From contig NZ_CP053346.1 in the NCBI RefSeq assembly GCF_013113735.1, forward strand, positions 4,664,001 to 4,728,000: DNA of 64,000 nt, in the 5' to 3' direction. Shown here piece by piece: positions 11,448-29,601 of the stretch. The position numbers and the translations under genes were made by a program. How positions within the stretch are numbered: position 1 is the first letter of the stretch; every line of letters begins with the position of its first letter. This DNA comes from Sphingomonas sp. AP4-R1. GTDB taxonomy: Bacteria; Pseudomonadota; Alphaproteobacteria; Sphingomonadales; Sphingomonadaceae. Under the pieces are notes generated by a model that was not told the DNA's origin, did no database searches, and saw only the letters and a list, made by a program, of their open reading frames with translations.

Positions 11448-11468
11448 CGATTCCCGCTCGTGCATGGA

Positions 11469-12395: not shown

Positions 12396-13141
12396 GCGGC
12401 GACTCCCAAAGCTTTCAGCTTGCCGACGAGTTCATCCACGTCGGCCACCTTGATGCCCGCCTGACGCTTCGGCGGCTCGGCCACCTTCAGCGTCTTCAGG
12501 CGCGGGGCGATGTCCACGCCCAGATCGGCGGGCGCCTTCACGGCCATCGGCTTCGACTTGGCCTTCATGATGTTCGGCAGCGACGCATAGCGCGGCTCGT
12601 TGAGGCGCAGATCGGTCGTCACGATCGCGGGGATCTTGAGGCTGACCGTCTCGAGGCCGCCATCCACTTCGCGCGTCACGGCGACGCTCTCGCCCGACAC
12701 CTCGACCTTCGACGCGAACGTGCCCTGGCCCCAGCCGAGCAGCGCCGCCAGCATCTGGCCGGTCTGGTTCGAATCGTCGTCGATCGCCTGCTTGCCGAGG
12801 ATCACGAGGCCGGGAGCCTCCTCGGTGGCGATCGCCTTCAGGATCTTGGCGACGGCGAGCGGCTCGACCTCGTCGTCCGTCTGCACCAGGATCGCGCGAT
12901 CGGCGCCCATCGCCAGCGCGGTGCGCAGCGTGTCCTGCGCCTTCTGCGGGCCGACCGAGACGGCCACGACCTCGGTCGCGACACCCTTCTCCTTCAGGCG
13001 GATCGCTTCCTCGACCGCAATCTCGTCGAACGGGTTCATCGACATCTTCACGTTCGCCAGATCGACGCCCGTGCCGTCCAGCTTCACCCGCGGCTTCACA
13101 TTATAATCGATCACCCGCTTCACGGGCACCAGAACCTTCAT
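12392..13141 (-). CDS. etfB: Electron transfer flavoprotein beta subunit
   Basis: A 249-residue AMP-binding ETF subunit and first gene of the ETF operon. The N-terminus [19 protein letters not shown] and the segment [21 protein letters not shown] are family signatures. The recognition-loop region ([21 protein letters not shown]) is intact. The gene lies 17 bp downstream of a perfect 15-bp palindrome (13158-13172) and a TTGACA-like -35 box (13191-13196 on the minus strand), so the whole ETF operon appears to be under control of a FadR-type regulator rather than purely constitutive. Confidence 0.96.
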
Positions 13142-13157
13142 CTCGCCGATCTCCCTT

Positions 13158-13172
13158 AATGGTCAGACCATT
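13158..13172. promoter_or_regulatory. FadR-type operator of the ETF operon
   Basis: AATGGTC-A-GACCATT is a perfect 7-1-7 palindrome. Its core TGGTCNGACCA is that of known FadR/GntR operators. It lies between etfB and a minus-strand TTGACA at 13191-13196. With an 18-bp spacer to the palindrome, it sits exactly where the -10 box and start site would be, as expected for a repressor site. The same sequence recurs at 28705-28745, and a variant at 26272. Confidence 0.7.
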
Positions 13173-13230
13173 CGATATTTCGGCATATTCTGTCAATCGG
13201 CGATTATGGTTCACATGTGACCAGGACGAC

Positions 13231-13260
13231 AAAAAAAGGGCCGCCCAAACGGACGGCCCT
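13231..13260 (-). terminator. Intrinsic terminator after the VanA-like oxygenase gene
   Basis: Read on the minus strand, a hairpin with 10-base arms (AGGGCCGTCC / GGGCGGCCCT, one mismatch) and an AAAC-type loop is followed by seven T. It lies 35 bp past the stop of the oxygenase at 13295 and insulates the divergent-reading ETF promoter. Confidence 0.8.
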
Positions 13261-13294
13261 CACATCGTCTCAAACTACTTGGCGAACCGATCGT

Positions 13295-14341
13295 TCACTC
13301 CGCCGCGACGAGAATACTTTCCTCCGCCTCGAACATACCGCTCAGCAGACGCCGCGTCTGATTGACCGCGCCGTCGCTGGCAATCCCGACGAATTTTCGA
13401 TCCGGACTTTCGTTGATGCGCGCCTGCTGCTGTTCGAGCGTGACTTCATCTTCCGTGATCGTATCAAAGAACTGCGCGAAAAGGACTTCCGGGACACCGC
13501 TCTCTTTCGATGCCGTCGTACAGATCGTCCACAGATAATGACTTGTCGTCTCGGTCTCGGGTGTAACGAAATGATTGTTCGCGAGCATGAAACCGCTGTC
13601 GCGCTTGCCCTCATACGCGCCGGTCCCGACGTCACAACCGCCGGCGTTCACGCGCAGCGTCATCCCCCGGCCCGGCTCGAACCGCACCTCCTGCCAACGA
13701 TCGACACGGCCCTTGAAGCCGCCAGCGTCGATATAAGAGCGCGGTGGCACCGAATTGGGCATGTGACGGATGAGAGTAACCTTGCGCCCGTCGAAATCCA
13801 CATTCGTATCCGCGCCATAATGCTGCTCGGGATTACCGCCGATCGTGCGCGCGTGAATGTACGGCACGTGCGTCAGATCCATGATATTGTCGACGATCAG
13901 TTGCCAATCCGCCTTTACGTGGAAATTGAAAGGCTTCCAGGTCCAGCGAGGATCGTCATGCTCAGGGGTATCGATAATGTCGTCCGGATCGGCCGCGGCG
14001 GCGTCGCCCATCCAGATCCAGATAAGTTGGTCTTTCTCTACCACGGGGTATGAGCGAACGTTCGCGGCGGCCGGAATGCGTGCCTGATTGGGAATGCGCG
14101 TACAGGCACCACTCTTGTCAAACTCCACGCCATGATAACAGCAGCGGATGACGTTGCCATCGACGTGGCCGGCGCTCAGGGGCATCGCGCGATGGCTGCA
14201 CCGATCTTCGAGCGCCGCAATCTCGCCCCCCTCGGTGCGAAACACCACGACGGATTCCCCGAGATACTTACGTCCGATCTGCTTACCGGGTGCGATCTCG
14301 CTGGCGAAAGCAGCCATATACCAGGCGTTACGAATGAACAT
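13295..14341 (-). CDS. Rieske non-heme iron oxygenase, VanA/dicamba-monooxygenase type
   Basis: A 348-residue terminal oxygenase alpha subunit. The start MFIRNAWYMAAFASEI is typical of vanillate O-demethylase and dicamba monooxygenase. The Rieske [2Fe-2S] ligands are C48/H50 (CSH) and C67/H70 (CCYH). The mononuclear iron site is D155-LT-H158-VPYI-H163. The family performs O-demethylation or hydroxylation of aromatic acids using electrons from a separate reductase; the nearest candidate is the FMN/2Fe-2S reductase at 19342-20274. A strong terminator follows. It lies 153 bp downstream of the SDR gene on the same strand and may have its own promoter. Substrate unknown. Confidence 0.9.
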   Translation of the reverse strand: MFIRNAWYMAAFASEIAPGKQIGRKYLGESVVVFRTEGGEIAALEDRCSHRAMPLSAGHVDGNVIRCCYHGVEFDKSGACTRIPNQARIPAAANVRSYPVVEKDQLIWIWMGDAAAADPDDIIDTPEHDDPRWTWKPFNFHVKADWQLIVDNIMDLTHVPYIHARTIGGNPEQHYGADTNVDFDGRKVTLIRHMPNSVPPRSYIDAGGFKGRVDRWQEVRFEPGRGMTLRVNAGGCDVGTGAYEGKRDSGFMLANNHFVTPETETTSHYLWTICTTASKESGVPEVLFAQFFDTITEDEVTLEQQQARINESPDRKFVGIASDGAVNQTRRLLSGMFEAEESILVAAE

Positions 14342-14494
14342 TGCGGGCTCTCCAAAACCTCACCAGGCTGCCGACGGCGCACCCGTTTTCTTCTCGCCAG
14401 GAAGATAAAGGTGCGACGATAAGCGACCAAATAACTTTCCGGATCCTGCATTCAAGAATCGGGATCGATGCCACGATGTCGGAGGCGCTCCGGC

Positions 14495-15271
14495 TTAGCG
14501 CAGGTAAAGCCCGCCATTCATGTCCAGCGTTGCGCCCATGAAAAATCCGCCCCGGTCAGAGGCGAGCAGCGCCGTGGCGGCCGCGATCTCGCCGACTTCC
14601 ATGAAACGCCCGATCGGGACCTCATCCTCGACAGCAGCGATCATGTCCGGTGACATGCGTTGCTTAGCGGAGTCGATTGGACCGGGAGAGATGGCATTGA
14701 CCGTCACGCCGGTTCCGGCGAGATGCCGCGCGAAATATTTGGAAAGCATGATCGCGCCTGCTTTCGATGCTGCATAATGGGCAGAAGCAACCGTTCCGCC
14801 ATTCTGGCCCGCCAACGACGTGATGTTGACAATCCGGCCATAGCCGTTGGCGACGAGGTGATCCTGGAATACCTGGATGCTGAGGAAAACGCTGCGCATG
14901 TTGATGCGCGAAATCTCGTCAAACTCCTCCGGCGTTATGTCGGGCGTCGGCGTGCGCTTGCCCTGACCGGCATTGTTGATCACGATATCAAGTTTGCCCC
15001 AGCGATCGACGATCGCCGCCAGCGCGGCCTCAAAGTCTGCTTTCTCGCGCACGTCGAGCTTCAAGGCAAATGCGGTTGCGCCGGAAACGTCCAGTGAGGC
15101 GGCGACCGCCTCGGCCGCAGCCGGATTGATGTCGCTCACTGCAACTTTACCCCCGCCCGCGTGAATTTCGCGGACGATTGCCTCCCCTACCCCCGAGCCA
15201 CCGCCCGTCACGATGGCGATCCGTCCTGCGAAGGAGAAGCTGCCGTTAGCGGGAAGGACGAGATCGGACAT
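14495..15271 (-). CDS. Short-chain dehydrogenase/reductase
   Basis: A 258-residue classical SDR. The cofactor motif TGGGSGVGEA, the NNAG motif and the catalytic YxxxK (YAASK) with the preceding serine (NITSLAG) are all present. The residue after strand 2 is aspartate (VSDINP), suggesting NAD preference. The C-terminus has the usual GATLDMNGG. An intrinsic terminator (15287-15322) separates it from the upstream receptor gene, so it is probably transcribed from its own promoter or by read-through. It likely oxidises a secondary alcohol or cis-diol produced by the oxygenases; this is inference from context. Confidence 0.88.
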   Translation of the reverse strand: MSDLVLPANGSFSFAGRIAIVTGGGSGVGEAIVREIHAGGGKVAVSDINPAAAEAVAASLDVSGATAFALKLDVREKADFEAALAAIVDRWGKLDIVINNAGQGKRTPTPDITPEEFDEISRINMRSVFLSIQVFQDHLVANGYGRIVNITSLAGQNGGTVASAHYAASKAGAIMLSKYFARHLAGTGVTVNAISPGPIDSAKQRMSPDMIAAVEDEVPIGRFMEVGEIAAATALLASDRGGFFMGATLDMNGGLYLR

Positions 15272-15286
15272 CGGGGCGCTCCAAAC

Positions 15287-15322
15287 AGAAAAGGCGGGAG
15301 GCGCCTTTGAACGCCTCCCGCC
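15287..15322 (-). terminator. Intrinsic terminator after the TonB receptor
   Basis: On the minus strand an 11-bp perfect stem (GGCGGGAGGCG / CGCCTCCCGCC, 8-base loop) is followed by TTTTCTG. It begins 14 bp past the receptor stop and ends 16 bp before the SDR start. Confidence 0.8.
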
Positions 15323-15335
15323 AAAGGGGATGTTG

Positions 15336-17609
15336 TCAGTTCTTAAAGGTCAATGTCGCGCCAAAAGTCCGCGGCGTGTTGGTGAAGATCTTCCAATATG
15401 TCGTGCCGGCGCCGGGCCGTATCAGGAAAGCGGTGATGTCGTCGGCATGAAGGATCTGATAATTGTTGGTGAGATTCTTCACCCAGGCGCCGACCGTCCA
15501 GCGCTTGTTGGGATCCTCATAGGTCAGACGCGCATTGAGCGTACGGCCACGCGTCTTGTCGTACAGGTTCGGATAGAGCCGCAGCGTGTTGGCATCGTCC
15601 GTCGAGATCCGATCCGAATAGCTGAAATCGGCTTGCGGCGTGATCGTCCCGCCATTTCCGATGTGCGCATCATAGCTCGCGCCAACGGCAAACGCGTTCC
15701 GCGGCGCGTATTTCGCCGGGTTTCCGGAATAATCGGCGACGACCAGCGGGTCCTTGAGCGACGTATATTTCCCCTTGAGGTAGGTATAGTTGAAGGTAAG
15801 CCGGACATCGGGAGCGGGCCTGACGACCGATTCCAACTCCGCGCCGCGCATGACCAGCGTCCCGTTATAGGTATGCGCGATCCCGCCGGCGCCGGAGAAA
15901 TTCTGCAGGTTCTTCGTCTTCTGGCGGAAAACCGAAAGGTTCACATCGACCTTGTTGTCGAAGAAGCGGCTCTTGATGCCACCCTCGATATTCTCGGCCT
16001 TTTCGGGGTCCAAGGGAATAGTGGGATTGCGATAGGCATTGTCGACGAAGCCGCCGCTCTTGAATCCCTTCGCATAGGTCACGTAGAAATTGACCGCATC
16101 GATCGGCTTCCACTTGGCGCTGAAGCGCGGCGTGAAAGCGTTCCACGTCTTGCCGCCCGAGGCGAATACCTCACCCGGAAAACCGAAGCCCGGGATCGTG
16201 CCGGGGTCGGTCAGAGAGAAAGCGTGATAGTCGATCTTCTTGCGGTCGCTCGTATATCGGCCGCCGGCAATGAGCGAAAAGCGGTCCGTCACGGCGAATG
16301 TCGCCTCTCCGAACACGGCGACGCTGCGGACATTGCCGTTCTGCACGCGATCGATGTTGGTGATGCTGGGGTTCGGGCGAACGGCAGCCGCTGTCGAGCT
16401 TCCCGGCAGCGGGCTGTAGAAGAATTGGTTGTTCGTGTAGACGTTGGCCGACAGATAATAAGCGCCGACGACGTAAGAGAGGCGGTTCGGCGCGGAGGCG
16501 AAGCGCACTTCCTGGGTGAAGCTGCGATTGCGCACATTCTGCGCGCGACCGAAAACAGGGGTCACGGTGCCGACGGGAACGTCGTCGTTCAACGCATAGC
16601 TGTTGTTCATCCGATATCCGCTGATCGCGGTCAGCACGCCGCCCAGAAGATCGAGATCGCCGCGCAAATAGCCCCCTCGCAGCCGCTGATGGTAAGGCGA
16701 GCGCGCATAATCATTGTTCACCCACTCGGCGTTGGTGAAATTACCAAACGTCGCCGGAACGACCTGATTGCCGCCAATCCCTAGCGAGATCGCGCCGCCA
16801 TTACCGCTCGTATAGCTATAGTCACCGGCGAGGACGATCTTCAGCGTGTCCGTTGGCGTGAACAGCAATTTGCCGCGGGCGGCATAGCTGTCCATGTCGC
16901 CATAACGACCGGACTGATTGGGCGCCTTGATGAGACCGTCAGAACGCTCGGTGCTGAACGCGATGCGCCCCGCAATCTTGTCGTCTTCCAGCACCGTGTT
17001 GAACGCACCCTCGGTACGCAAATAGCCGCGATTGCCGCCGGTCAGTTGGCCATAATAGTTGGTGTCGAACTCAGGATTGTTCGTGATGACGGCAATCGCG
17101 CCGCCCACGACATTGCGACCGAACAGCGTACCCTGTGGGCCACGCAGCAGTTCCACGCGGCTGACGTCGTAGAAATTCGAGTTCAGATCGTTGTTGAAGA
17201 CATAATAGACATCATCAACGAAGAACGCGACAGGCGTGTCCAGAGTTGCTGTTCGAAAGGTCGACACGTTGCCGCGGATGGCGACAATGGAAAGCGACTT
17301 GTCAGCCGTGTTGATCGTGATTCCAGGCGTCGTGCCGACGAGAGCGGCCGGGCTGTTAATCTGCTGGGTGCGAAGCTGTTCACCGGAGAAAGCCGCGATC
17401 GAGAACGGCACCTCGCGTACCGTCGACGCACGCCGCTGGGCGGTCACGATGATGTCTCCAGTGACTGCGCCTGCCGCCGTGGCAGGCCCGGCTTCCGCTG
17501 GCGCCTGCGTGCTTGCGTCAGCTGGCGTCGGCGTAGCGGTCTGGGCATGGCTCGGGGCCGCGAGCACCATTGCAAGCGCGGCCGAAGACAAAGCGATATT
17601 GGTCTGCAC
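15336..17609 (-). CDS. TonB-dependent outer-membrane receptor
   Basis: A 757-residue TonB receptor. The signal peptide ends near APSHAQTATP. It is followed by a Pro/Thr/Ala linker, the TonB-box-like GDIIVTAQRRASTVREVP and the plug domain with VAIRGNVSTFRTATLDTP and VELLRGPQGTLFGRNVVGG. The barrel ends in TFGATLTFKN. It is divergent from the phthalate-type Rieske oxygenase across a 271-bp region with an ATTAGAA/TTCTAAT inverted repeat. It probably imports the substrate that the two oxygenases attack; as with other sphingomonad receptors, the ligand cannot be read from sequence. Confidence 0.9.
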   Translation of the reverse strand: MQTNIALSSAALAMVLAAPSHAQTATPTPADASTQAPAEAGPATAAGAVTGDIIVTAQRRASTVREVPFSIAAFSGEQLRTQQINSPAALVGTTPGITINTADKSLSIVAIRGNVSTFRTATLDTPVAFFVDDVYYVFNNDLNSNFYDVSRVELLRGPQGTLFGRNVVGGAIAVITNNPEFDTNYYGQLTGGNRGYLRTEGAFNTVLEDDKIAGRIAFSTERSDGLIKAPNQSGRYGDMDSYAARGKLLFTPTDTLKIVLAGDYSYTSGNGGAISLGIGGNQVVPATFGNFTNAEWVNNDYARSPYHQRLRGGYLRGDLDLLGGVLTAISGYRMNNSYALNDDVPVGTVTPVFGRAQNVRNRSFTQEVRFASAPNRLSYVVGAYYLSANVYTNNQFFYSPLPGSSTAAAVRPNPSITNIDRVQNGNVRSVAVFGEATFAVTDRFSLIAGGRYTSDRKKIDYHAFSLTDPGTIPGFGFPGEVFASGGKTWNAFTPRFSAKWKPIDAVNFYVTYAKGFKSGGFVDNAYRNPTIPLDPEKAENIEGGIKSRFFDNKVDVNLSVFRQKTKNLQNFSGAGGIAHTYNGTLVMRGAELESVVRPAPDVRLTFNYTYLKGKYTSLKDPLVVADYSGNPAKYAPRNAFAVGASYDAHIGNGGTITPQADFSYSDRISTDDANTLRLYPNLYDKTRGRTLNARLTYEDPNKRWTVGAWVKNLTNNYQILHADDITAFLIRPGAGTTYWKIFTNTPRTFGATLTFKN

Positions 17610-17698
17610 CTTTGCATCTCCCCGGTAAAATGTCGCGGTCTCTCGGGGCCGCTTCTGGGGGGTGAAGACAACAAGCCGGGCCGCCGCGCAAGGGTGTT

Positions 17699-17723
17699 AT
17701 TAGAACAATCCCGGTTTTCTAAT
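17699..17723. promoter_or_regulatory. Inverted repeat between divergent receptor and oxygenase
   Basis: ATTAGAA at 17699-17705 and TTCTAAT at 17717-17723 form perfect 7-base arms around an 11-base spacer. The site lies in the shared 271-bp promoter region of the receptor (minus) and the Rieske oxygenase (plus). The spacing suits a dimeric activator of LysR type; the tandem-HTH LysR protein at 24933 is one candidate. No direct evidence links them. Confidence 0.45.
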
Positions 17724-17880
17724 GGGATAGATCGCTTTCCGATCGGTACTCGCCGTCAATCTCTCTAGCGGCCGATGGCAGGTCCGCTTATCAAAACTGC
17801 ATCGGGCACGAGGCTGGAGAGGCTCGACGGACCAAATCCAGCCGGCACCCAACCGATCGAGATCATTGGAAAGAGCCGAG

Positions 17881-19197
17881 ATGCAGTCGAACGATAGCGC
17901 CGACCTCACCCGCGTTGGCCCGGGCACGGTCATGGGCACCTTCATGCGCCAATATTGGATGCCCGCCCTCCTGTCGTCGGAAGTGGTGGCAGACGGCGAT
18001 CCGGTACGCCTGATGATCATGTGCGAAAAACTAATCGCCTTCCGCGACACCAGCGGCAGGGTCGGGATCATGGATCATCGCTGCCCACATCGCTGCGCAT
18101 CCTTGTTCATCGGGCGCAACGAGCAGAGCGGGATCCGATGCGTCTATCATGGCTGGAAGTTCGACGTGGATGGCAAGTGCGTCGATATGCCGAGCGTGCC
18201 GGCGCGGATGGACTTCAAGGAAAAGGTCCACGCCAAGGCTTATAAGACGCATGAGGCCAACGGCCTGATCTGGGTCTATATGGGCGAGAACCAGGCCAGC
18301 CCCCCGCCGCTGCCTGAGATCGAGGCGACGATGGAGCCCGACGCAGAGATCTGGTGCCTGCAACGCGACTGCAATTGGCTCCAGGCTCTGGAAGGCGATA
18401 TCGACACGAGCCATGTCGGCTTCCTGCATGTCGGTGGCATCGAGGCCGATGATCTCGAGCCGGACCATCCGATGCGCCCGACGGTGCTGGATCGTGCACC
18501 CGAATATGAGGTTGCCCAGTCAGATTGGGGCGTGATGTACGGCGGCTACCGCCCGAACGATGACGGCCAGATGTCGTGGCGCATCGCCCATTTCATGTTC
18601 CCGCACTGGACCCAGACGCCGAATAACCGCTTCGTGAGCCGGGCCATCGCGCGCGCCTGGGTGCCGATCGACGATGAGCATTCGATGCTGTTCGACATCA
18701 CCTGCGGCGTGGACGCGGGGAATCCGGCTTATAATTCGACGCTCAAGGACGGCACGCCGCTCTACGACAAGATCAGCTACGCACCGAACACCACCGACTG
18801 GTATGGTCGGTGGCGCTCGACAGACGACATCCGCAACGATTGGGCGATCGATCGCGACTCCCAGCGCAATGGCCATCAGTTCACCGGCATCCCCAACATC
18901 ACGATGCAGGATCAGGCGGTAACGGAGAGCATGGGACCGATCACGGACCATAGCTTCGAAAATCTGGCGCCGACCGATCAGATGATCGCGCGCGTCCGCC
19001 GGCGCCTGCTGCTCGCGGCGCGAGCCTTGTCCAACAAGGGGACGGTGGGCCCCGGAGTCGAGGATCCGAGCATTTTCTACAAAGCGCGGGCCGGCTCCTT
19101 TCTCCACGATCCCGCGGACGGTCTGATGGGGGCCTACGAAGCCGCGCTCGCCAAGGCGGTGCGCTGGCCGATCAGAGAAACTGAAGCAGCCGAGTGA
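17881..19197 (+). CDS. Rieske aromatic oxygenase alpha subunit, phthalate-dioxygenase type
   Basis: A 438-residue terminal oxygenase. Its N-terminus (LTRVGPGTVMGTFMRQYWMPAL) matches the phthalate 4,5-dioxygenase / phenoxybenzoate dioxygenase group, which includes LigX-type O-demethylases. Rieske ligands are C68/H70 (CPH) and C87/H90 (CVYH); the iron site is D175-TS-H178-VGFL-H183. I chose ATG 17881, preceded by GAAAGAG, over an upstream in-frame TTG. The phthalate-type reductase follows 144 bp downstream on the same strand, forming a two-component system with no separate ferredoxin or beta subunit, which is normal for this group. The reaction could be dihydroxylation or ether/methoxy cleavage. 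Confidence 0.9.
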   Translation: MQSNDSADLTRVGPGTVMGTFMRQYWMPALLSSEVVADGDPVRLMIMCEKLIAFRDTSGRVGIMDHRCPHRCASLFIGRNEQSGIRCVYHGWKFDVDGKCVDMPSVPARMDFKEKVHAKAYKTHEANGLIWVYMGENQASPPPLPEIEATMEPDAEIWCLQRDCNWLQALEGDIDTSHVGFLHVGGIEADDLEPDHPMRPTVLDRAPEYEVAQSDWGVMYGGYRPNDDGQMSWRIAHFMFPHWTQTPNNRFVSRAIARAWVPIDDEHSMLFDITCGVDAGNPAYNSTLKDGTPLYDKISYAPNTTDWYGRWRSTDDIRNDWAIDRDSQRNGHQFTGIPNITMQDQAVTESMGPITDHSFENLAPTDQMIARVRRRLLLAARALSNKGTVGPGVEDPSIFYKARAGSFLHDPADGLMGAYEAALAKAVRWPIRETEAAE

Positions 19198-19341
19198 CGA
19201 GTAACGCGGACCGGTCGATCCATGCCCGGCCCGAACAAGGACATAACAGGTGACGAAACGAGTAGAGGTGGAGCCGACGCGCCGATCCAGGGCGCGCACG
19301 GACTTCGACCATCGCGCGCAACGCACCGCGAGGAGAGGCTG

Positions 19342-20274
19342 ATGCGCGTACGACTTCGGAACATCCGCTGGGAAGCGGAGGGGATCAATAGCTACGTCCT
19401 CGAGCCCATGGCAGGCGAACGTCTCCCGGCCTTTACCGCCGGTGCCCATATCGATCTTCAGCTCGCGAAAGGTCTGGCGCGCAGTTATTCGCTGGTCAAC
19501 GATCCGGCGATCCGCGGCTATTACGAGATTGCCGTCCACCACGCGATCGACGGACGCGGCGGCTCCCGCCATATCCACGAAAACTGGCGTGTCGGCGAAA
19601 TCCTCGAAATCTCGGACCCGAAGAACAATTTCCCGCTGGAGGAATCGGCCGAGCATACCGTGCTGATCGCCGGGGGAATCGGGGTGACGCCGATGTTGCC
19701 GATGATCGCGCGCCTCGAGCAACTCGGCCGGACGTGGGAACTGCATTATGTCGCAGCCACGCCCGATCGGGCGGCCTATGTCGATCGTATCGAGGAATAT
19801 CCCCAAGTCGAGATCGCCTATGATGGCATCCCCGGCGGCCAGCGGCTCGATCTGAAGAAGATCTGTGACCGGGCGCCAGCGAACGCGCATCTCTACTGCT
19901 GCGGCCCAACGGGCATGCTGGATGCCTTCGTCGCGATCAACGCAAGCCGGCCCAAAGGCCATGCCCATATCGAGTACTTCTCCGCGGAGACCGAATTGGC
20001 CATCGACGGTGGGTACAGCCTGGAACTCGCCAAGAGCGGCAAGACGATCGTCGTGGAGGAAGGCGAGACGATGCTGGACGCTTTGCTGACGGCAGGCGTC
20101 GATATCGGTTTCGCCTGCGCCGAGGGCGTGTGCGGCACGTGCCAGGTCAAGGTGCTGGACGGCGTGCCGGACCATCGCGACCATTTTCTGACCGAAGACG
20201 AAAAGGCCGCGAATACATCGATCATGGTGTGCTGCTCGGGATCCAAGAGCCCCGTGCTCGTGCTGGACGTCTGA
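19342..20274 (+). CDS. Phthalate-dioxygenase-type reductase (FMN, NAD, 2Fe-2S)
   Basis: A 310-residue electron-transfer protein of the VanB/OphA1 family. It has an FMN/NAD ferredoxin-reductase module with ARSYSLVNDP and the GGIGVTPMLPM loop, and a C-terminal plant-type 2Fe-2S domain with CAEGVCGTC and a distal CC. The start at 19342 is supported by AGGAGAGG just upstream. It supplies NADH electrons to the preceding oxygenase and, since no other reductase is present, probably also to the VanA-like oxygenase at 13295. Confidence 0.92.
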   Translation: MRVRLRNIRWEAEGINSYVLEPMAGERLPAFTAGAHIDLQLAKGLARSYSLVNDPAIRGYYEIAVHHAIDGRGGSRHIHENWRVGEILEISDPKNNFPLEESAEHTVLIAGGIGVTPMLPMIARLEQLGRTWELHYVAATPDRAAYVDRIEEYPQVEIAYDGIPGGQRLDLKKICDRAPANAHLYCCGPTGMLDAFVAINASRPKGHAHIEYFSAETELAIDGGYSLELAKSGKTIVVEEGETMLDALLTAGVDIGFACAEGVCGTCQVKVLDGVPDHRDHFLTEDEKAANTSIMVCCSGSKSPVLVLDV

Positions 20275-20353
20275 TGCCGGTAGCCGGACTATAATCCCGG
20301 AAAACGAATGCGAGCGCTAGAATTCTTATGCCCAACCTTGGGCAGAAAAGTCC

Positions 20354-20368
20354 GATGGTCAGGCCAAT
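20354..20368. promoter_or_regulatory. Diverged FadR-type operator before the transporter-GMC-ALDH operon
   Basis: GATGGTCAGGCCAAT agrees with AATGGTCAGACCATT at 12 of 15 positions; the TGGTCAG half is perfect. It lies 54 bp before the GTG start of the AAHS transporter at 20422. A TATAAT at 20290-20295 could be the -10 of a promoter just upstream. Confidence 0.5.
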
Positions 20369-20421
20369 AGGTCTTATGAAAATGATATGCTGGCCATCAA
20401 GGCGAGCCTGAGAGGAACAGA

Positions 20422-21789: not shown

Positions 21790-23414
21790 TCGAAAGCTTC
21801 GATTATATCGTGATCGGCTCCGGATCGGCCGGGGCCGTCATGGCCAATCGTCTGTCCGCCGATCCCGCCGTGCGTGTGGCGCTGATCGAGGCGGGCCCGT
21901 CCGACCGCAAGTGGCCGGCCAACATCAAGACGGCGCTGCCGGTCGGCAACATCTTCCTGCTGCCCCATGCCAAATACAACTGGCAGCATGCGCTCAGCGG
22001 CAATGCCGAAGTCGGCAATCGCACGATCAACTTCCCGCGCGGAAAGGTCTTCGGCGGGTGCAGCGCGATCAATGGCGGCGTCTATATTCGCGGCCAGCGC
22101 GCCGACTATGACGCATGGGAGCAGGCCGGCAACGAAGGCTGGTCCTATGATGATGTCCTACCCGCCTTCAAGGCGCTCGAAAACTATGCCGGCGGCCCGA
22201 CGCCCTTTCATGGCACCGGCGGCGAACTCGATGTACAGAAGCCGCGCGAGGTCAATCCGCTGACCCTCGCCTTCGTCGAAGCCGCGGTGGAGGCGGGCCA
22301 TCACCGCAACGACGATTTCGCCGGCACGCGGCAGGACGGTTTCGGCCGCTACGATCTCAAACAGCGCAACGGCCTGCGCCTCAGCAGTTCGCGCGCCTTC
22401 CTCCATCCAGCGCTGAAGCGACCGAACCTCACCGTCTTCGAACTGACCATAGTCCACCGGATCGTCGTCTATCGCGGGCGAGCGGTCGGGATCGAGGTGG
22501 AGCATGACGGTCAGCGGCGCACGATCCGGGCAGTCCGGGAAATCATCCTGAGCGGCGGCACGATCAACTCGCCGCAATTGTTGATGCTCTCCGGCATCGG
22601 CCCGGAAGATCATCTGCGCGCGCACGGCATCGATGTGGTGCAGCCGCTGCCCGGTGTTGGCGCGAACCTGCAGGATCATCCCACCGTCCACGTCGCGATG
22701 GAGAACCCGTCAGCTGAAAGCTACGCCATGTCGCCACGCTCCTGGCCGCGCATGGCGATGAGCCCCTTCCGTTACCTGCTGCGCCGGGACGGCATGCTGG
22801 CGTCGAACGTGGCCGAGGCGGGCGGGTTCGTGTCGACCGACGGCACGGGCCGCCCCGACATCCAGATGACGTTCCTCGTCGGCCTGAAATCCAATGCGCG
22901 GACGATCCCGAAGGCGCACGGCTATATGGCACTGGTGCAGCTCCTGCGGCCGAAGAGCGCGGGATCGGTGCGGCTGCGGAGCGCCAACCCGCAGGACAAG
23001 CCGATCATCGATCCGAACTTCTTTGCCGATCCGTATGACCTAAGCACCCTCATGGCGGGCTTCCGCGAGGCGCGGAGGATCGTCTCGCAGCCGGCGCTCG
23101 CACGCTTTTCGGGCGCGGAGATCGAGCCGGGCGCCGAGCTTCAGAGCGATGCGCAGGTCGGTGCCGCGCTGCGCCGTTACGTCAACACGGCCTATCACCC
23201 GACCGGAACCTGCAAGATGGGTCCGGACAGCGATCCGATGGCGGTCGTCGATCATCGTCTGCGCGTGCGCGGCATTGCGGGGCTGCGCGTCGTCGACGCT
23301 TCCATCATGCCCGACATCATCAGCGGCAATACCAGCGCGCCGACGATGATGATCGGCGAGCGTGCCGCTGGCTTCGTGCTTGAAGACGCCGTGAAATCGA
23401 ACATCGCCGCCTGA
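21786..23414 (+). CDS. GMC-family FAD-dependent alcohol dehydrogenase
   Basis: A 542-residue choline-dehydrogenase-like flavoprotein oxidising a primary alcohol to an aldehyde. The N-terminal FAD motif is IVIGSGSAGAVMANRLS. GMC signature 1 surrounds GKVFGGCSAINGGVYIRG and signature 2 is GGTINSPQLLMLSGIGP. The C-terminal catalytic His/Asn region is YHPTGTCKMG and ISGNTSAPTMMIGERAA. The true start is GTG 21786, overlapping the transporter stop; the frame is open further upstream but that part is antisense-like. The next gene, 25 bp on, is an aldehyde dehydrogenase, giving an alcohol to acid pair. Polyethylene-glycol dehydrogenase (PegA) is one relative of this type; the substrate here is unproven. 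Confidence 0.92.
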   Translation: MIESFDYIVIGSGSAGAVMANRLSADPAVRVALIEAGPSDRKWPANIKTALPVGNIFLLPHAKYNWQHALSGNAEVGNRTINFPRGKVFGGCSAINGGVYIRGQRADYDAWEQAGNEGWSYDDVLPAFKALENYAGGPTPFHGTGGELDVQKPREVNPLTLAFVEAAVEAGHHRNDDFAGTRQDGFGRYDLKQRNGLRLSSSRAFLHPALKRPNLTVFELTIVHRIVVYRGRAVGIEVEHDGQRRTIRAVREIILSGGTINSPQLLMLSGIGPEDHLRAHGIDVVQPLPGVGANLQDHPTVHVAMENPSAESYAMSPRSWPRMAMSPFRYLLRRDGMLASNVAEAGGFVSTDGTGRPDIQMTFLVGLKSNARTIPKAHGYMALVQLLRPKSAGSVRLRSANPQDKPIIDPNFFADPYDLSTLMAGFREARRIVSQPALARFSGAEIEPGAELQSDAQVGAALRRYVNTAYHPTGTCKMGPDSDPMAVVDHRLRVRGIAGLRVVDASIMPDIISGNTSAPTMMIGERAAGFVLEDAVKSNIAA

Positions 23415-23439
23415 GCGTGGCGGACAAAGGAGAGATGCG

Positions 23440-24930
23440 ATGGAGATGATCAAGGTCGGCGCACGCCGCCCGGCGATGCTGGATCGCCCCCAGCAGGAGA
23501 TGTTGATCGACGGCCAGCGCGTGCCTGCGCTTTCCGGCAAGACGTTCGAGACGCGCAACCCTGCGACGGGCGAATTGCTGGCGATCGTGGCCGATGGCGA
23601 CGCGCAGGACGTGGATCGCGCCGTAAAGTCCGCGCGCGCTGCCTTCGAAGGTCCATGGAGCCGCATGAAGGCGGTCGAGCGCCAGCGCATCATGCTGCGC
23701 CTCGCCGACCTCGTCGAAGATCATTACGAAGAATTGGCGATGCTCGACACGCTCGATCTGGGCGCGCCCTATTCGCGTACCATGCTGGGCAAGGCACGCG
23801 CCGGCGCATTGCTGCGTTATTATGCGGGTCAAGCCACGCTGATCGCAGGCGAAACGCTGCCGAATGCCGCGATGGGCGACGTGATCAGCCATACACTCAA
23901 GGAACCGATCGGCGTGGTCGCCGCGATCAACCCGTGGAACGGGCCGGTCGGCATGTCGGTGTGGAAAGCCGGCCCCGTTCTGGCGAGCGGGTGCACGCTG
24001 GTCATGAAGCCGGCCGAGCAGACCCCCCTGTCCGCGCTCCGCTTCGGCGAACTGTGCCTCGAGGCGGGTGTGCCACCCGGCGTGATCAACATCCTGACGG
24101 GCCAGGGGGCGGCCGGGGCTGCGCTGTCCGCGCATCCGGATGTCGACAAGATCGCCTTCACGGGCTCGACCGGCGTCGGCGAAAAGATTCTCCACGCAGC
24201 CGCTGGCACGATGAAGCGCGTCACCGTCGAGCTCGGCGGCAAGTCACCCAACATCGTCTTTGCCGATGCGGATCTCGACAAGGCGGTTCCGGCCGCCGCG
24301 ATGGCGGTGTTCGCCAATTCCGGACAGATCTGCAGCGCGGGCACGCGCCTCTTCGTCCAGTCCTCGATCCGCGAAGAATTCATGGAGCGGCTCGCGGCTT
24401 TCACCCGGACGATCAAGGTCGGTGACCCGCTCGATCCCGAAACCCAGATCGGCCCGGTCGTCTCCGCGCCGCAGATGGACAAGATCCTCGCTTATATCGA
24501 GAGCGCCACGCGTGAAGGTGGCGAGGCCCTGGTCGGCGGTAAGCGCATGAGTGGTGTCGGCTATGATGATGGCTTCTTCATCGAACCGACTATTTTCACT
24601 GGCCTCGACGACACGATGACGATCGTACGCGAGGAGATCTTCGGGCCGGTCCTGTCGGCGTTAAGTTTCGATACGATCGAGGAGGCGCTGCAGCGCGCCA
24701 ACGCCACGGAATTTGGATTGGCCAGCGGCGTATGGACCAGCAATCTCACGACCGCGCATCGCATGGCGCGCGGCATTCGCGCCGGCTCCGTTTGGATCAA
24801 TTGCTATCAGATGCTCGATCCCGGCGTGCCGTTCGGGGGCTACAAGATGAGCGGCTTCGGCCGGGAATCCGGCCCGCATCACATCGAGGATTATCTCGAA
24901 ACCAAGTCGGTCTGGATCAAGTTGGATTGA
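23440..24930 (+). CDS. NAD(P)-dependent aldehyde dehydrogenase
   Basis: A 496-residue member of the ALDH superfamily. The NAD fold carries FTGSTGVGEKI. The general base is E264 in TVELGGKSPN and the nucleophile is C298 in NSGQICSAGTRL. The C-terminal PFGGYKMSGFGRE motif is intact. A strong AAAGGAGAG precedes the ATG. It is the last gene of the transporter-GMC-ALDH operon and converges on the LysR gene, whose stop is 3 bp away. It would oxidise the aldehyde made by the GMC enzyme to a carboxylic acid ready for CoA transfer. Confidence 0.95.
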   Translation: MEMIKVGARRPAMLDRPQQEMLIDGQRVPALSGKTFETRNPATGELLAIVADGDAQDVDRAVKSARAAFEGPWSRMKAVERQRIMLRLADLVEDHYEELAMLDTLDLGAPYSRTMLGKARAGALLRYYAGQATLIAGETLPNAAMGDVISHTLKEPIGVVAAINPWNGPVGMSVWKAGPVLASGCTLVMKPAEQTPLSALRFGELCLEAGVPPGVINILTGQGAAGAALSAHPDVDKIAFTGSTGVGEKILHAAAGTMKRVTVELGGKSPNIVFADADLDKAVPAAAMAVFANSGQICSAGTRLFVQSSIREEFMERLAAFTRTIKVGDPLDPETQIGPVVSAPQMDKILAYIESATREGGEALVGGKRMSGVGYDDGFFIEPTIFTGLDDTMTIVREEIFGPVLSALSFDTIEEALQRANATEFGLASGVWTSNLTTAHRMARGIRAGSVWINCYQMLDPGVPFGGYKMSGFGRESGPHHIEDYLETKSVWIKLD

Positions 24931-24932
24931 AC

Positions 24933-26171
24933 TCAGGGTTCGGCCGTCTGTTCGCTTTGATCTTCGATCCAATCGGACACCGGCCGGTCCTTGCTCGTCC
25001 GGGCTATCTCGCCGAGCAGTTCGAGAAAGCGACGCTGCATCGCCGTCGGCCGCCAGCTGCGCCGCGTCGTGATGCCAATCATGCGGGAACTGTCGTCCAG
25101 CGGCGGTCCGACGCGCGCCAGCAAACCGAGACGGATCTGGAGCGCGACCTGATCGGGCGACAGCAGGGTGAGGAAATGCCCCTCCGTGAGCAGCCGGCCG
25201 ATGATCATGACGGAGCCACACTCGATGGGTGTCTTGGGCAGGTCACGCCCCTCGAACATCCGTTCCCAGATCAGGCGCAGCGGTGTGTTGGCCGGAGGCA
25301 CGATCCAGGGATAGGAAGCGAGCGTATCGAGGTCGGGCATGAGCGGCCCCGCCAGAGGATGCCGACTGCCACACGCAATGACGAGCCGGTCTTCGTAAAG
25401 CGGGATCTGGTGAAGATCGGTGATGTCGAAGGCGCGCAGCGCACCGACGATCAGATCGACCCGCCCGTCGCGCAACGGCTCGACCAGTTCACGCCAGCTT
25501 CCTTCGATCACCTCGAAACGCGCAAGCGGCTGTTCCTGCGCGAGACGTCCCATGGCCGTCGGCGCCAGGAACGGCCGTGAGAGCGGCAAAGCACCGAAGG
25601 CGATGAGTTCACCTTCCGTCTCGACGCCCAATTCCGTCATCGCGGCCGTCAGCTCGCCCAAAGCTAACCGGATACCGCGCGCGAGCTTGCGGCCCGCAGC
25701 GTTAAGCCAGACGCCGCGCCCGCGCCGCTCGACCAGCTTCCCGCCGATCACCTGCTCCAGATCACCCACGGCGCGGTGTACGGCCGTGTGCGAAAAGGGC
25801 GTGTTGGCGGCCGCGACCACGAAGCTGCCTGCATCCGCCAGCGCGAGAAAGGCCCGCAGCTGCGTCATCGTCATGAGCCGCTCCGGGTGCGAAAAGACGC
25901 GGGTCAGGCCCCTCGCCCCCATCGCGATATGATCGATCGCCGCGCGCACCCGCTCGATCACGATCGTACCGACCGGGGTGATCACCATGCCCTCAGACCG
26001 GCGTTCGAAAAGGACGTAGCCGATCTGCTTTTCCAGCTTGGCCAGCCCCTGCGTGAGCGCTGGCTGCGAGAGACTGACCGCGTCCGCAGCGGCGGTGATG
26101 CTGCCTGTCTCTTGTATCGCGAGCAGGGCCCGCAAGTGTCGCAGATTGAGATCGAACGGATCCGCAGCCAT
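24933..26171 (-). CDS. LysR-type regulator with two tandem N-terminal HTH domains
   Basis: At 412 residues this is about 100 longer than a normal LysR protein. Residues 9-68 form a complete LysR winged HTH (LRHLRALLAIQETGSITAAA, SLSQPALTQGLAKLEKQIG). A second one occupies 101-160 (MTQLRAFLALADAGSFVVAA, FSHTAVHRAVGDLEQVIG). The effector-binding domain runs from about 187 to 395. It is divergent from the acyl-CoA dehydrogenase and convergent with the aldehyde dehydrogenase, so it probably controls one or both neighbouring units. Both HTH copies look intact rather than degenerate. The double reading head suggests unusual or spaced operators. Confidence 0.88.
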   Translation of the reverse strand: MAADPFDLNLRHLRALLAIQETGSITAAADAVSLSQPALTQGLAKLEKQIGYVLFERRSEGMVITPVGTIVIERVRAAIDHIAMGARGLTRVFSHPERLMTMTQLRAFLALADAGSFVVAAANTPFSHTAVHRAVGDLEQVIGGKLVERRGRGVWLNAAGRKLARGIRLALGELTAAMTELGVETEGELIAFGALPLSRPFLAPTAMGRLAQEQPLARFEVIEGSWRELVEPLRDGRVDLIVGALRAFDITDLHQIPLYEDRLVIACGSRHPLAGPLMPDLDTLASYPWIVPPANTPLRLIWERMFEGRDLPKTPIECGSVMIIGRLLTEGHFLTLLSPDQVALQIRLGLLARVGPPLDDSSRMIGITTRRSWRPTAMQRRFLELLGEIARTSKDRPVSDWIEDQSEQTAEP

Positions 26172-26271
26172 CCGATCAGCCTCGGATCACGCGCGGGGTC
26201 GGGTATGCGATCGCCATTCCCTTTCCTGCCATCATAAGCGTGCATTTTCAAATAGACGACGTGATAACGTC

Positions 26272-26286
26272 AATGGTAGGACCATT
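26272..26286. promoter_or_regulatory. FadR-type operator of the acyl-CoA dehydrogenase
   Basis: AATGGT-AGG-ACCATT is a perfect palindrome with a 3-base centre. It has the same outer arms and length as the ETF operator and lies 50 bp before the acyl-CoA dehydrogenase start, between it and the divergent LysR gene. Confidence 0.68.
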
Positions 26287-26335
26287 CCGAAAGATCGACC
26301 CATCTTGGGGTTGATACCGGGAAGGAGCGCCGATC

Positions 26336-27472
26336 ATGGACTTTGAACTGCCAGCAGAAGTCGCGGAATTTCGTGAGGTCACCCGTCAGATCGTTACGGA
26401 TCTCCTTCCGTATGAGCGCGAGTTCGTGGAAGAAGGCACTATCAATCCGATCATCCGCAAAACGCTGATCGACAACGGCTATTTCGCGCTGGCCTTTCCC
26501 GAGGAATATGGCGGCCTTGGCCTGGGTGCGCTGGCGCAGGCTGTCGTGCAGATCGAGCTCGCCCGCCTTCCCCCGCAATTCTGGACCGAGCTTCGCCCGC
26601 TGATGGGCCCGGGCGCGAAGAACATCCTGAACCATGGCAATGCCGAGCAGAAAGCGCGCCTCGTACCCGGTATGGCGGACGGCACGATCCCGATCGCCTT
26701 CGCGCTGACCGAAGCGCATTGCGGATCGGATCTCGCCTCGATGCGGACCACTGCGGTCCGCAATGCCGACGGCTGGGTCATCAACGGCAGCAAGACGTAT
26801 ATTTCCAACGGCAAGAACGCCAAGGAAGTGATCGTCTATGCCTATACCGACAAGTCGGCCGGCCGGAACGGCATGTCCGCTTTCCTGATGAGCGCCAGCA
26901 CACCCGGATTCTCGGTGGACGGCACGATCCCTTTGATGGGAACCGCCACGCCGGGCGTGTACGAATTGTCGTTCACCGATTGTCAGGTGCCGGCCGAAGC
27001 GATGCTCGGCGAGGAAGGTCGGGCGTTCCACTATGCGTTGGAAGGCCTGAACGAGGGCCGCCTCAACGTCGGTGCGACCGCGGTCGGCATGGGCGAATAT
27101 GCGTTGGAACTGGCGATCGACCAGGCCAAGACACGGCCGGCTTTCGGCGGCGTCATCGCCGACTTCCAGGCGATCCGCCATTATATGGCGCAGATGGCGA
27201 CCGACATGCGCGCCGCGCGTATGCTGCTGCTGGATGCCTGCTGGCGCTACGACAATGGTGATCGTCGCCGGGAGCTCGCCTCGATGGCCAAATTGTTCGC
27301 GACCGAGGCCGGCAGCCGCACGGTCGACAGCGCGGTGCAGATCTTCGGCGGCGCCGGCTATTGCAAGGGCTATGCGGTCGAGCGGCTTTATCGCGATATC
27401 CGCATCACGCGGATTTATGAGGGCTCTTCGGAGATCCAGAAGAATACGATCGCGCGCGAATTGCTGCGCTGA
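26336..27472 (+). CDS. Acyl-CoA dehydrogenase
   Basis: A 378-residue FAD enzyme introducing an alpha,beta double bond into an acyl-CoA. The signature ALTEAHCGSDLASM binds FAD, and the C-terminal catalytic glutamate lies in the IYEGSSEIQKNTIAREL motif at residue 362. FGGAGYCKGYAVERLYRD is also typical. A GGGAAGGAG ribosome site precedes the ATG. It has its own palindromic operator upstream and a bidirectional hairpin terminator 9 bp downstream. Its electrons would pass to EtfAB and ETF:QO encoded at 9.8-13.1 kb, which carry the same operator. With the convergent CoA-transferase it forms a CoA-dependent branch of the pathway. Confidence 0.94.
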   Translation: MDFELPAEVAEFREVTRQIVTDLLPYEREFVEEGTINPIIRKTLIDNGYFALAFPEEYGGLGLGALAQAVVQIELARLPPQFWTELRPLMGPGAKNILNHGNAEQKARLVPGMADGTIPIAFALTEAHCGSDLASMRTTAVRNADGWVINGSKTYISNGKNAKEVIVYAYTDKSAGRNGMSAFLMSASTPGFSVDGTIPLMGTATPGVYELSFTDCQVPAEAMLGEEGRAFHYALEGLNEGRLNVGATAVGMGEYALELAIDQAKTRPAFGGVIADFQAIRHYMAQMATDMRAARMLLLDACWRYDNGDRRRELASMAKLFATEAGSRTVDSAVQIFGGAGYCKGYAVERLYRDIRITRIYEGSSEIQKNTIARELLR

Positions 27473-27480
27473 TCCCGGCG

Positions 27481-27504
27481 AGGAGGGGCGTCGTCGCCCC
27501 TCCT
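27481..27504. terminator. Bidirectional hairpin terminator
   Basis: A perfect 10-bp stem (AGGAGGGGCG / CGCCCCTCCT) with a TCGT loop separates the convergent acyl-CoA dehydrogenase (stop 27472) and CoA-transferase (stop 27505) genes. It lacks long T runs, so efficiency is uncertain. Confidence 0.65.
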
Positions 27505-28692
27505 TCAGCCCATGATGCCGGCGTTTTTGAGCGCCGCGATCGCTTCGTCCGACATGCCGAGTTCCTGCGCCAGCACATCGGCGCCATGCTCTCCGAGCCG
27601 CGAAACCATGTCACGCGCTTCGGCGCGCGATCCCGACATGCGGAACGGCGGATTGGGCACGCGATATCGCCCGCCCTCGTCCCCGATTTCGGTGAAGAAT
27701 TTACGCGCCGCGAGCTGTGGGTCGTCCAGCAACTCCTCAACGTTGCGATAGCGCGCGCAGGGTACGCCAAAGCGCGACAGGATCTGCTCGCCCTCTTCGG
27801 AACTGTGCGTGATCGTCCATTTCTCGGTCTCGGCCAGCAGGTCCGACCAGTTGGCGTTGCGATCGGCATTGGTGCGAAACCGGGGATCCTCGCGCCATTC
27901 GGGGTGGCCGACCGCATCCGCCAGCTGCTCGAAATTCTTCGGGCTCGTCGGCGCGACCATCAGGAAACCGTCTCGGGTCTTGAGCGGTGTGTAGAGCGGT
28001 CGGCGCGGCGCGACATTCTGGGCCTGCTGCAGTTCGAACACGAGCATGCCCGCCATCGCCTCCAGCATCGACACGTCCAGAAACTGGCCGACGCCGGTCT
28101 TTTCGCGCTGATAAAGCGCAGTCTGAATCGCACCGAAGGCATGGGTGCCGCCGAGTACGTCGGCCACGAAGATCCCGCTTGTCGCCGGACGGTCCACGGC
28201 GCCGTCCTGATAGTCCATATTGACCATATCGAAGCCACTGGAGGCGTGGACGACCGGTGCGTAGGCCGGATCCTGCGACCGTGGCCCAGTCTGACCGTAG
28301 CCCGAGATCGAACAATAGATCAGGCGCGGATTGATCGCCGCGAGCGTGGGATAATCCAGTCCCAGCCGGGCCATGACACCCGGCCGGAAATTCTCGACCA
28401 GCACGTCGAAGCCGGCAACAAGCTGCCTGATCGCCGCGATCGCCTCGGGCGCCTTGAGATTGAGCGCGATGCTGCGTTTGCCGGCGTTGAGATGCCCGAA
28501 ATAGGAACTTGCCCCGTCGCGCAGCGGCGGCCGTGCGCGGACCTGATCGCCTTCGAGCGATTCCACCTTCACCACATCGGCACCCAGATCCGCCAACATC
28601 CGTGTGGCGAACGGGCCGGCCATGACGGCCGTGAAATCCAGAACCCGGACGTCCGCCAGGGCGTCGCTCGTCGTCCGCCCGCTCTCACTCAC
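27505..28692 (-). CDS. Class III (CaiB/BaiF) CoA-transferase
   Basis: A family III CoA-transferase of about 395 residues that moves CoA from a donor thioester to a carboxylate. The N-terminus VRVLDFTAVMAGPFATRMLADLGADVVKVE is diagnostic. SIALNLKAPEA and PGVMARLGLDYPTLAAINPRLIYCSISGYGQTGP are conserved, and the catalytic-aspartate region is GIFVADVLGG. I prefer GTG 28692, preceded by GGAGAG, over a GTG six codons upstream. The gene starts 13 bp from a perfect 41-bp palindrome carrying the FadR-type core. It is convergent with the acyl-CoA dehydrogenase and likely makes the acyl-CoA that enzyme uses. Confidence 0.93.
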   Translation of the reverse strand: MSESGRTTSDALADVRVLDFTAVMAGPFATRMLADLGADVVKVESLEGDQVRARPPLRDGASSYFGHLNAGKRSIALNLKAPEAIAAIRQLVAGFDVLVENFRPGVMARLGLDYPTLAAINPRLIYCSISGYGQTGPRSQDPAYAPVVHASSGFDMVNMDYQDGAVDRPATSGIFVADVLGGTHAFGAIQTALYQREKTGVGQFLDVSMLEAMAGMLVFELQQAQNVAPRRPLYTPLKTRDGFLMVAPTSPKNFEQLADAVGHPEWREDPRFRTNADRNANWSDLLAETEKWTITHSSEEGEQILSRFGVPCARYRNVEELLDDPQLAARKFFTEIGDEGGRYRVPNPPFRMSGSRAEARDMVSRLGEHGADVLAQELGMSDEAIAALKNAGIMG

Positions 28693-28704
28693 TCGTGCTC
28701 TCCG

Positions 28705-28745
28705 TATCACAAACTATAATGGTCTGACCATTATAGTTTGTGATA
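28705..28745. promoter_or_regulatory. Perfect 41-bp palindromic operator of the CoA-transferase
   Basis: Two 20-base arms, the left being TATCACAAACTATAATGGTC, are exact reverse complements around a single T. The centre is the FadR-type AATGGTCTGACCATT. TATAAT occurs in both directions (28715-28720 plus, 28735-28730 minus), so the minus-strand -10 box of the CoA-transferase promoter is buried inside the operator. The flanking arms beyond the 15-bp core are not conserved at the other sites. Confidence 0.8.
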
Positions 28746-28786
28746 GCAGTGTCAACGCGTGGCAATTCCAACCAGACCGCGCGCGG

Positions 28787-29533: not shown

Positions 29534-29580
29534 CCGTGGCTAACCGCCAACCCGCCGATAGACAATCGGTTGAACCCTTC

Positions 29581-29601
29581 CAACGTCATATTGCGACGTT
29601 G
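29581..29601. promoter_or_regulatory. Inverted repeat upstream of the GntR gene
   Basis: CAACGTC and GACGTTG form perfect 7-base arms around ATATTGC, 48 bp before the GntR start. It differs from the AATGGTNNNACCATT sites, so it may bind another protein or act at the RNA level. Confidence 0.35.

Follow-up and report, generated by a model that had tools for sequence, protein, structure and literature searches.

Gene content and operator sites

The window analysed here is a stretch of 64,000 nucleotides from Sphingomonas sp. AP4-R1 (contig NZ_CP053346.1, positions 4,664,001 to 4,728,000), and the subject is a set of catabolic genes within it which share a 15-bp palindrome in their promoters, together with the neighbouring gene of a GntR/FCD regulator, the proposed ligand of these sites. 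An electron-transfer flavoprotein (ETF) gene run, etfB-etfA-etfQO, lies on the reverse strand, with etfB at 12392..13141 (Pfam ETF), etfA at 11469..12395 (Pfam ETF and ETF_alpha) and, after a gap of 3 nt, the ETF-QO gene at 9813..11465 (Pfam Fer4_ETF_QO and ETFQO_UQ-bd). Further along stand an acyl-CoA dehydrogenase gene (26336..27472, forward strand; Pfam Acyl-CoA_dh_N, M and 1), a family III (CaiB-type) CoA-transferase gene (27505..28692, reverse strand; Pfam CoA_transf_3) and the regulator gene (28787..29533, reverse strand; Pfam GntR and FCD). For the CoA-transferase, a GTG start at 28692, with GGAGAG ahead of it, appears likelier than a start at 28710. A LysR-type regulator gene (24933..26171, reverse strand) is divergent from the dehydrogenase gene.

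The palindrome AATGGTNNNACCATT was found exactly at three places in the window, all intergenic: as AATGGTCAGACCATT at 13158..13172 in the etfB promoter, ending 16 nt ahead of the ATG, as AATGGTAGGACCATT at 26272..26286 in the acyl-CoA dehydrogenase promoter, and as AATGGTCTGACCATT at 28718..28732 in the CoA-transferase promoter. An earlier sequence-only reading of this DNA had reported the same palindrome upstream of these genes, and these copies were confirmed as exact. The core TGGTNNNACCA occurred three times in the window with 0.24 expected, and none of 100 shuffles gave three. In the whole genome (5.27 Mb) the exact pattern was present solely at these three places and its reversed control nowhere, so that exact hits are confined to the island. 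When up to two mismatches were allowed, 36 sites were counted in the genome against 32 for the control, which is no excess, and a genome-wide regulon was rejected on this ground; none of the listed sites with one or two mismatches lay at the other etfBA or ETF-QO copy of the genome, which are described below.

The CoA-transferase operator is the centre of a perfect 41-bp palindrome with 20-bp arms (28705..28745), and after it no perfect inverted repeat of the window (loop 0, 1 or 3) had arms longer than 11. Among the other 23 CaiB sites scored none was a perfect 15-mer, and the 41-bp palindrome was not seen at those promoters.

The sequence TTGACA, which we take to be a -35 element from its consensus, was observed on the reverse strand at 13191..13196, 18 nt upstream of the etfB operator, and at 28750..28755, 17 nt upstream of the CoA-transferase operator. 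In all 16 genomes with an operator at the island etfB, TTGAC stood 17-18 nt ahead of it (TTGACA in 13), and the operator ended 16-30 nt ahead of the ATG. The CaiB promoters of the window and of genomes G062 and G033 had the same layout as that at etfB. At both genes the operator would cover the presumed -10 and the start site, which is the position of a repressor.

The GntR/FCD regulator

The protein encoded at 28787 matched PF00392 with 57.1 bits (cut-off 27) and PF07729 with 60.6 bits (cut-off 24.3), which places it in the FCD subfamily of the GntR superfamily, and a palindromic operator with a TGG-N5-CCA core stands near the genes that it is proposed to regulate. Membership in the E. coli FadR family was rejected (TIGR02812, 34.0 bits against a cut-off of 249.2), and so was membership in the PdhR family (NF007001, 99.4 bits against 330). 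The name FadR-type, used in the sequence-only reading, is not supported in its strict sense, and the regulator is a GntR/FCD protein. It is like E. coli FadR in the GntR N-terminal domain and in the link to acyl-CoA metabolism, and the FadR operator core is presumably TGGTNNNACCA-like; the two differ in the effector domain, which in the 28787 protein matches FCD (PF07729).

An AlphaFold2 model of the protein, made with 30 sequences, had a mean pLDDT of 83. Its closest solved fold was CGL2915 (TM 0.70), NanR was also among the best, and FadR chains were lower (TM 0.33-0.51). The reading-head arginines R53, R63 and R67 were unchanged in all 30 aligned sequences. The metal ligands of FCD domains are, as we take them, one Asp and three His, at positions in CGL2915 that we likewise assign by assumption. 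In the alignment to CGL2915 (2di3), the 28787 protein kept H233 but had Y168 and R211 in place of two His, so this ligand set is incomplete; all 30 aligned sequences had R211, and 90% or more had Y168 and H233. Some FCD proteins do without metal. The absent metal set narrows the subgroup of the 28787 protein and does not expel it from the FCD subfamily, and with Y168 and R211 at two metal positions an effector other than a metal-held small carboxylate is plausible.

Two described regulators can be compared with it. PdhR of E. coli, the best NCBIfam match of the 28787 protein, aligns with the same arginines in its helix-turn-helix region, and its box AATTGGTNNNACCAATT, as given in the available text of PMC7660256, has the same core GGTNNNACC as the window operator; the flanks, as contrasted here, are AAT/ATT in the window and ATT/AAT in the PdhR box. 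PdhR goes with pyruvate dehydrogenase, whereas the window regulator is in a catabolic island. A consensus operator for FCD proteins, TGGNNNNNCCA, is given in the accessible part of PMC12042122. The same part of that source describes AlkR of Pseudomonas aeruginosa (FCD/VanR group) as a dimeric repressor which binds a palindrome over the -10 regions of a catabolic promoter, is released by long-chain acyl-CoA and controls an alkane monooxygenase. AlkR is taken as a working model for the 28787 protein by analogy, although its operator there, ATTGTCAGACAAT, is unlike the window palindrome and its target is the alkane monooxygenase, not ETF.

Conservation of the predicted regulon

Among 118 genomes the exact motif was found in 22, and the regulator at E<=1e-40 in three, namely G000 (the window's own genome), G062 (73% identity) and G033 (70% and 58%). 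G062 has two exact motifs no more than 3 kb away from its regulator gene; the first separates the divergently read GntR and etfB genes, and the second precedes the dehydrogenase gene. Named genomes, when searched, yielded 79 loci, and 23 of these (L078-L100) had a GntR protein of 56-76% identity with island genes around it; their hosts were Sphingobium, Novosphingobium, relatives and one Roseomonas. A matrix was built from 32 exact-type sites of these loci, with CaiB and Rieske sites kept out of it, and was run over upstream regions.

The upstream region of GntR/etfB scored at least 22 in 17 of the 23 islands and 10-14 in three, with nothing in the other three. Upstream of dehydrogenase/LysR the score was at least 14 in 16 of the 19 loci with a LysR gene, and in the remaining three the stretch read held no dehydrogenase match. 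All 23 islands scored 11.3-17.4 upstream of CaiB, where 21 sites read ATAGGTNNNACCATT. Upstream of the Rieske oxygenase gene, the first of the oxidation operon (Rieske-FNR-MFS-GMC-ALDH), the motif (8.4-19) was present 89-121 nt ahead of the start in 14 of 15 other islands, the count being of islands whose stretch reaches the Rieske gene start, and one scored 3.7. The ALDH and FNR promoters of the islands gave no score above 2.3.

Regulator and motif thus co-occur across genomes at orthologous promoters. In the relatives the predicted regulon is the oxygenase operon, CaiB, the dehydrogenase, etfBA and GntR itself. The proposal of a local regulon over ETF, acyl-CoA dehydrogenase and CoA-transferase is supported by these comparisons, in which the motif, whose exact copies are confined to the island in this genome, recurs at the same promoters in relatives with the same regulator. 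The oxidation operon, which had been counted in the regulon as well, would belong to it in the relatives by the Rieske sites; in the window there is no Rieske site, and the near-match GATGGTCAGGCCAAT (20354..20368, between the FNR and MFS genes and before the MFS gene) had a counterpart at the MFS promoter in only one of the 12 other islands scored. This near-match is present as a 12/15 copy, as had been stated, but at a tolerance of three mismatches the window holds 17 sites with 10.7 expected. Its matrix score was 5.7, and a match this weak, within noise, is by itself no proof of an operator.

The palindrome AATGGTNNNACCATT was also seen beyond the island group, near GntR homologues of 41-50% identity (L107 at 10686, L113 at 7634, L102 at 1486 and 2617, L127 at 10996, L128 at 10882), and this operator may be shared by a broader subfamily of regulators.

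The second ETF set

The genome has a further etfBA (C1:975781-977441) and a further ETF-QO gene (C1:4365273-4366922) at two unlinked loci, here called resident, and both are without the motif, the resident etfB having no operator. Island and resident etfBA were 100% identical in DNA over 1661 bp, from the etfB ATG to 12 nt short of the etfA end, and the DNA flanking this block was unrelated on both sides. The last 12 nt of etfA differed but gave the same kind of ending (TGKL* and TSKL*). The two ETF-QO genes were 99.94% identical, with one difference in 1651 positions. It had been concluded from the window that the housekeeping ETF chain is induced with one catabolic route; since the resident set is free of the operator and the operator sits on a second, nearly identical set, this inference needs changing. 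The resident etfBA of G000 was 87.5% identical to that of G002, with 88.1% over 3172 bp, so that etfBA and its flank are about equally diverged, which fits copying from resident to island.

Homogenisation was examined in the 16 island genomes in which it could be tested; outside this count stood G120 and G122 (no etfB match), G131 (partial), G128 and G129 (one copy) and G121 (island-type and third-type copies only). The island etfBA was nearest to a copy of its own genome in 11 of the 16, with identities of 100% (G000), 99.9% (G126), 99.7% (G133), 98.6% (G062), 97.9% (G127, 522 nt), 97.2% (G125), 96.7% (G033), 96.2% (G134), 95.6% (G123), 93.3% (G118) and 91.9% (G136). In a tree of 22 rows from 11 genomes, from which third-type copies were kept out, the island/resident label changed 10 times, and a single island clade was rejected by the approximately unbiased (AU) test (p-AU 2.8e-47), in which one identical pair (G000) was left free. 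Paralogues of one genome are thus closer to each other than to orthologues, the pattern of concerted evolution. In eight of the 11 homogenised islands (G062, G133, G126, G134, G125, G123, G118 and G127) etfB is beside GntR and the operator, a shared position, and in four genomes (G000, G062, G125 and G017) the end of the second etfA differs from the resident one, in frame and homologous. In G017 five mismatches were found in the first 1650 nt, all at offset 1540 or later, towards the 3' end. The shared position and the leftover unconverted ends indicate copies older than their homogenisation, and the ends support conversion; the whole pattern fits concerted evolution in which gene conversion would be the process.

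An island copy of ETF-QO could be identified in five genomes, G126 standing outside this count; the pairs were alike in three of them (G000, G134 with 97.7% and G123 with 97.9% over 568 nt), and not alike in G132 and G130. The draft genome of Sphingobium sp. Ant17 (G118) shows a truncated resident etfA, which may be a draft error, and its resident etfBA groups with island copies; this grouping would fit copying from island to resident, and with the truncated reading it is not relied on.

Beyond the island, etfB was found at E<=1e-70 in 388 of 397 genomes of a family sample, at least 39 of which had two or more among the matches listed. Six further etfBA pairs, taken from among these matches (L246-L257, six genomes), were 91.5, 97.4, 98.2, 99.4, 99.8 and 99.9% identical; they are not a random sample and were not compared with orthologues. 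The second etfBA of G017 is 99.7% identical and lies within a cluster rich in acyl-CoA dehydrogenases, and in G408 the stretch 452-470 kb has dehydrogenase and CaiB-like matches. Second copies which are not homogenised also exist, in G002 (83%) and as a third etfBA type, t3 (L187, L188, L191, L192 and L054). This type was 99.7-100% identical in G125, G118, G127, G121 and G062; in G062 it adjoins fadB-like, acyl-CoA dehydrogenase and nitronate monooxygenase genes, and it is probably part of a recently spread beta-oxidation cluster. Contigs L081, L082, L088 and L089 end inside etfB, as short-read assemblies do at repeats.

Proposed mechanism and alternative explanations

Beyond the observed sites, their uniqueness and conservation, the promoter geometry and the identity of the duplicates, the whole is read as a locally regulated catabolic module, with the GntR/FCD protein at 28787 acting on three operators and with a homogenised second ETF set, and a probability of about 0.82 is given to this reading. 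Local repressor control of a small gene set for one compound is very likely on the comparisons above. A dimer of the 28787 protein would bind AATGGTNNNACCATT at three promoters, those of etfB-etfA-etfQO, the acyl-CoA dehydrogenase and the CaiB CoA-transferase. Binding at etfB and CaiB would block RNA polymerase, and the repressor would be freed by an intermediate of the pathway, for which a carboxylate or the corresponding CoA thioester is most likely. The CoA-transferase would then activate the acid, the dehydrogenase would oxidise the acyl-CoA, and the co-induced ETF and ETF-QO would pass the electrons to ubiquinone. The upper genes of the window would be controlled otherwise, by the LysR protein, or to a weak degree through the site at 20354. 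Gene conversion would keep the second ETF coding sequence like the general ETF and ETF-QO, with the operator staying the island's own, and induction would add electron-carrier dosage, not a different ETF. In a wider form, sphingomonad islands would carry a "chameleon" electron-transfer cassette, keeping operator and promoter and having the etfBA (and ETF-QO) coding sequence repeatedly overwritten from core genes of the host, perhaps occasionally in reverse; the chances for and against this are judged equal.

Several observations weigh against the module reading. The exact motif was present in 20 of the 118 genomes which had no regulator match at E<=1e-40. The window is an atypical member, with its etfBA-QO apart from the regulator at the far left of the island; its own GntR promoter scored 0.2 against 22-27 in 17 other islands, and the stretch 17610-17865 before the Rieske gene held no operator (best score -1.3). 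Because the window lacks the Rieske operator seen in 14 of 15 other islands, its regulon would have lost or moved control of the oxidation operon. The island etfB of G033 and that of G136 had no operator, and at standard spacing the -10 agrees poorly with the consensus. No homogenisation was found in five of the 16 genomes (G119, G132, G124, G130 and G135), and in G118 it is marginal (93.3 vs 92.7).

Other explanations concern either the regulator or the ETF copies. If the palindromes were bound by another protein, the LysR regulator at 24933 or a GntR protein from elsewhere, the neighbouring GntR gene would be incidental; the LysR gene is indeed divergent from one operator site, and the 20 genomes with motif and without regulator match would agree with such a case. 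Yet it is very improbable, for the GGTNNNACC palindrome is the known box of the GntR/FCD regulator PdhR, the FCD consensus speaks for GntR/FCD binding, the motif goes with GntR even in loci where the LysR gene was not found in the locus read (L080, L082, L095 and L096), and it occurs near some of the more distant GntR homologues. Some GntR/FadR proteins both repress and activate, and the 28787 protein may likewise activate, or repress at some sites and activate at others; the Rieske sites 89-121 nt ahead of the start would suit this, as would an additional site with one mismatch, some 20 nt further upstream at the dehydrogenase promoter, which 11 of the 14 named islands listed have and which was not seen in the window. 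Activation is improbable, if less so than another binding protein, as the operators over the presumed -10 of etfB and CaiB are in the place of a repressor.

As for the near-identity of the ETF copies, recent separate duplications in each genome, each recruiting a fresh host copy, would explain the 100% identity in G000 and the etfBA-QO block at a different island end there than in most others. In the eight islands named above, etfB has the same place and operator and yet its nearest relative is the own-genome copy, and therefore parallel fresh duplications are unlikely; the in-frame etfA ends, homologous to but unlike the resident ends, are opposed to them too, as is an identity that begins at the ATG with unrelated DNA outside, and in G000 the island would have had to take copies from two unlinked resident loci and link them. 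An old paralogue undergoing conversion is thus preferred, but this conversion may well be a neutral by-product, ETF being the sole island gene similar enough in sequence to one of the host for recombination, without benefit in dosage or compatibility, and this is given a chance only a little short of even. There is no control gene, since no other part of 13142-33000 has a near copy elsewhere in the genome (best long matches 65-70%), and in many other family members etfBA already shares about 80-87% identity with the window copy. The likeness of second etfBA copies outside this island (91.5-99.9% in six of six further pairs, and G017) and the place of ETF on the short list of recurrently homogenised prokaryotic genes in the available text of PMC6053082 point the other way, and neither excludes neutrality.

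Relation to known systems

The regulons of FadP, PsrA and LiuR, which we take to include etf genes, would be a precedent for ETF under catabolic control. They differ from the window in other regulator families and in larger regulons, whereas here three sites in one island are found beside a separate operator-free ETF set. In the accessible part of PMC5343134 these three are regulators of fatty-acid and branched-chain metabolism, with FadP as TetR and LiuR as MerR in a table.

In the available text of PMC6053082 (2018), etfA and etfB (there eftA and eftB) are recurrently homogenised in Burkholderiales, entered with 10 and 9 in its table. The same text raises horizontal transfer as a possible factor for ETF, and for ammonia-oxidation operons it makes the same kind of argument against parallel duplication. 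As here, within-genome paralogues of ETF in Burkholderiales are closer than orthologues. Unlike in that case, the present genomes are Sphingomonadaceae, one copy belongs to a catabolic island and has a conserved operator of its own, and in some genomes ETF-QO is homogenised too. A literature search with little reach into subscription journals found no account of this regulon and no ETF concerted evolution in sphingomonads.

Other genes of the window

The LysR-type protein, about 400 aa long, has two tandem HTH_1 domains (67.9 and 49.4 bits, cut-off 26.6) followed by one substrate domain, and matches in G062, G033 and named islands span the greater part of it; one literature search, which gave a single paper, showed no such tandem. 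For the Rieske protein at 17866, the nearest PDB entries are named phthalate dioxygenase or plain Rieske proteins, no NCBIfam match was obtained at 1e-20, and the names of its homologues are generic. A tert-butyl-alcohol-like route was considered as the substrate pathway and nothing was found in its support. A eukaryote transcriptome record (P0024) matched the Rieske protein with 90% and is most likely bacterial contamination.

Meaning for sphingomonad catabolism

Pathway-specific regulation of ETF bears on how a cell provides an electron sink once induction of a flavin-dependent dehydrogenase sets in suddenly. From the conserved footprint comes a testable regulon, and possibly a sensor part, for a pathway of Sphingobium, Novosphingobium and relatives of which no description was found. 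For annotators, short-read assemblies can break at such ETF repeats. The published Burkholderiales case of ETF is extended to another class and tied to a catabolic island. With a private promoter and a homogenised coding sequence, an accessory copy may supply dosage or compatibility and not a specialised protein. If the islands move between hosts, their own induction logic would arrive with them, and the ETF would end up fitting the ETF-QO and dehydrogenases of the host.

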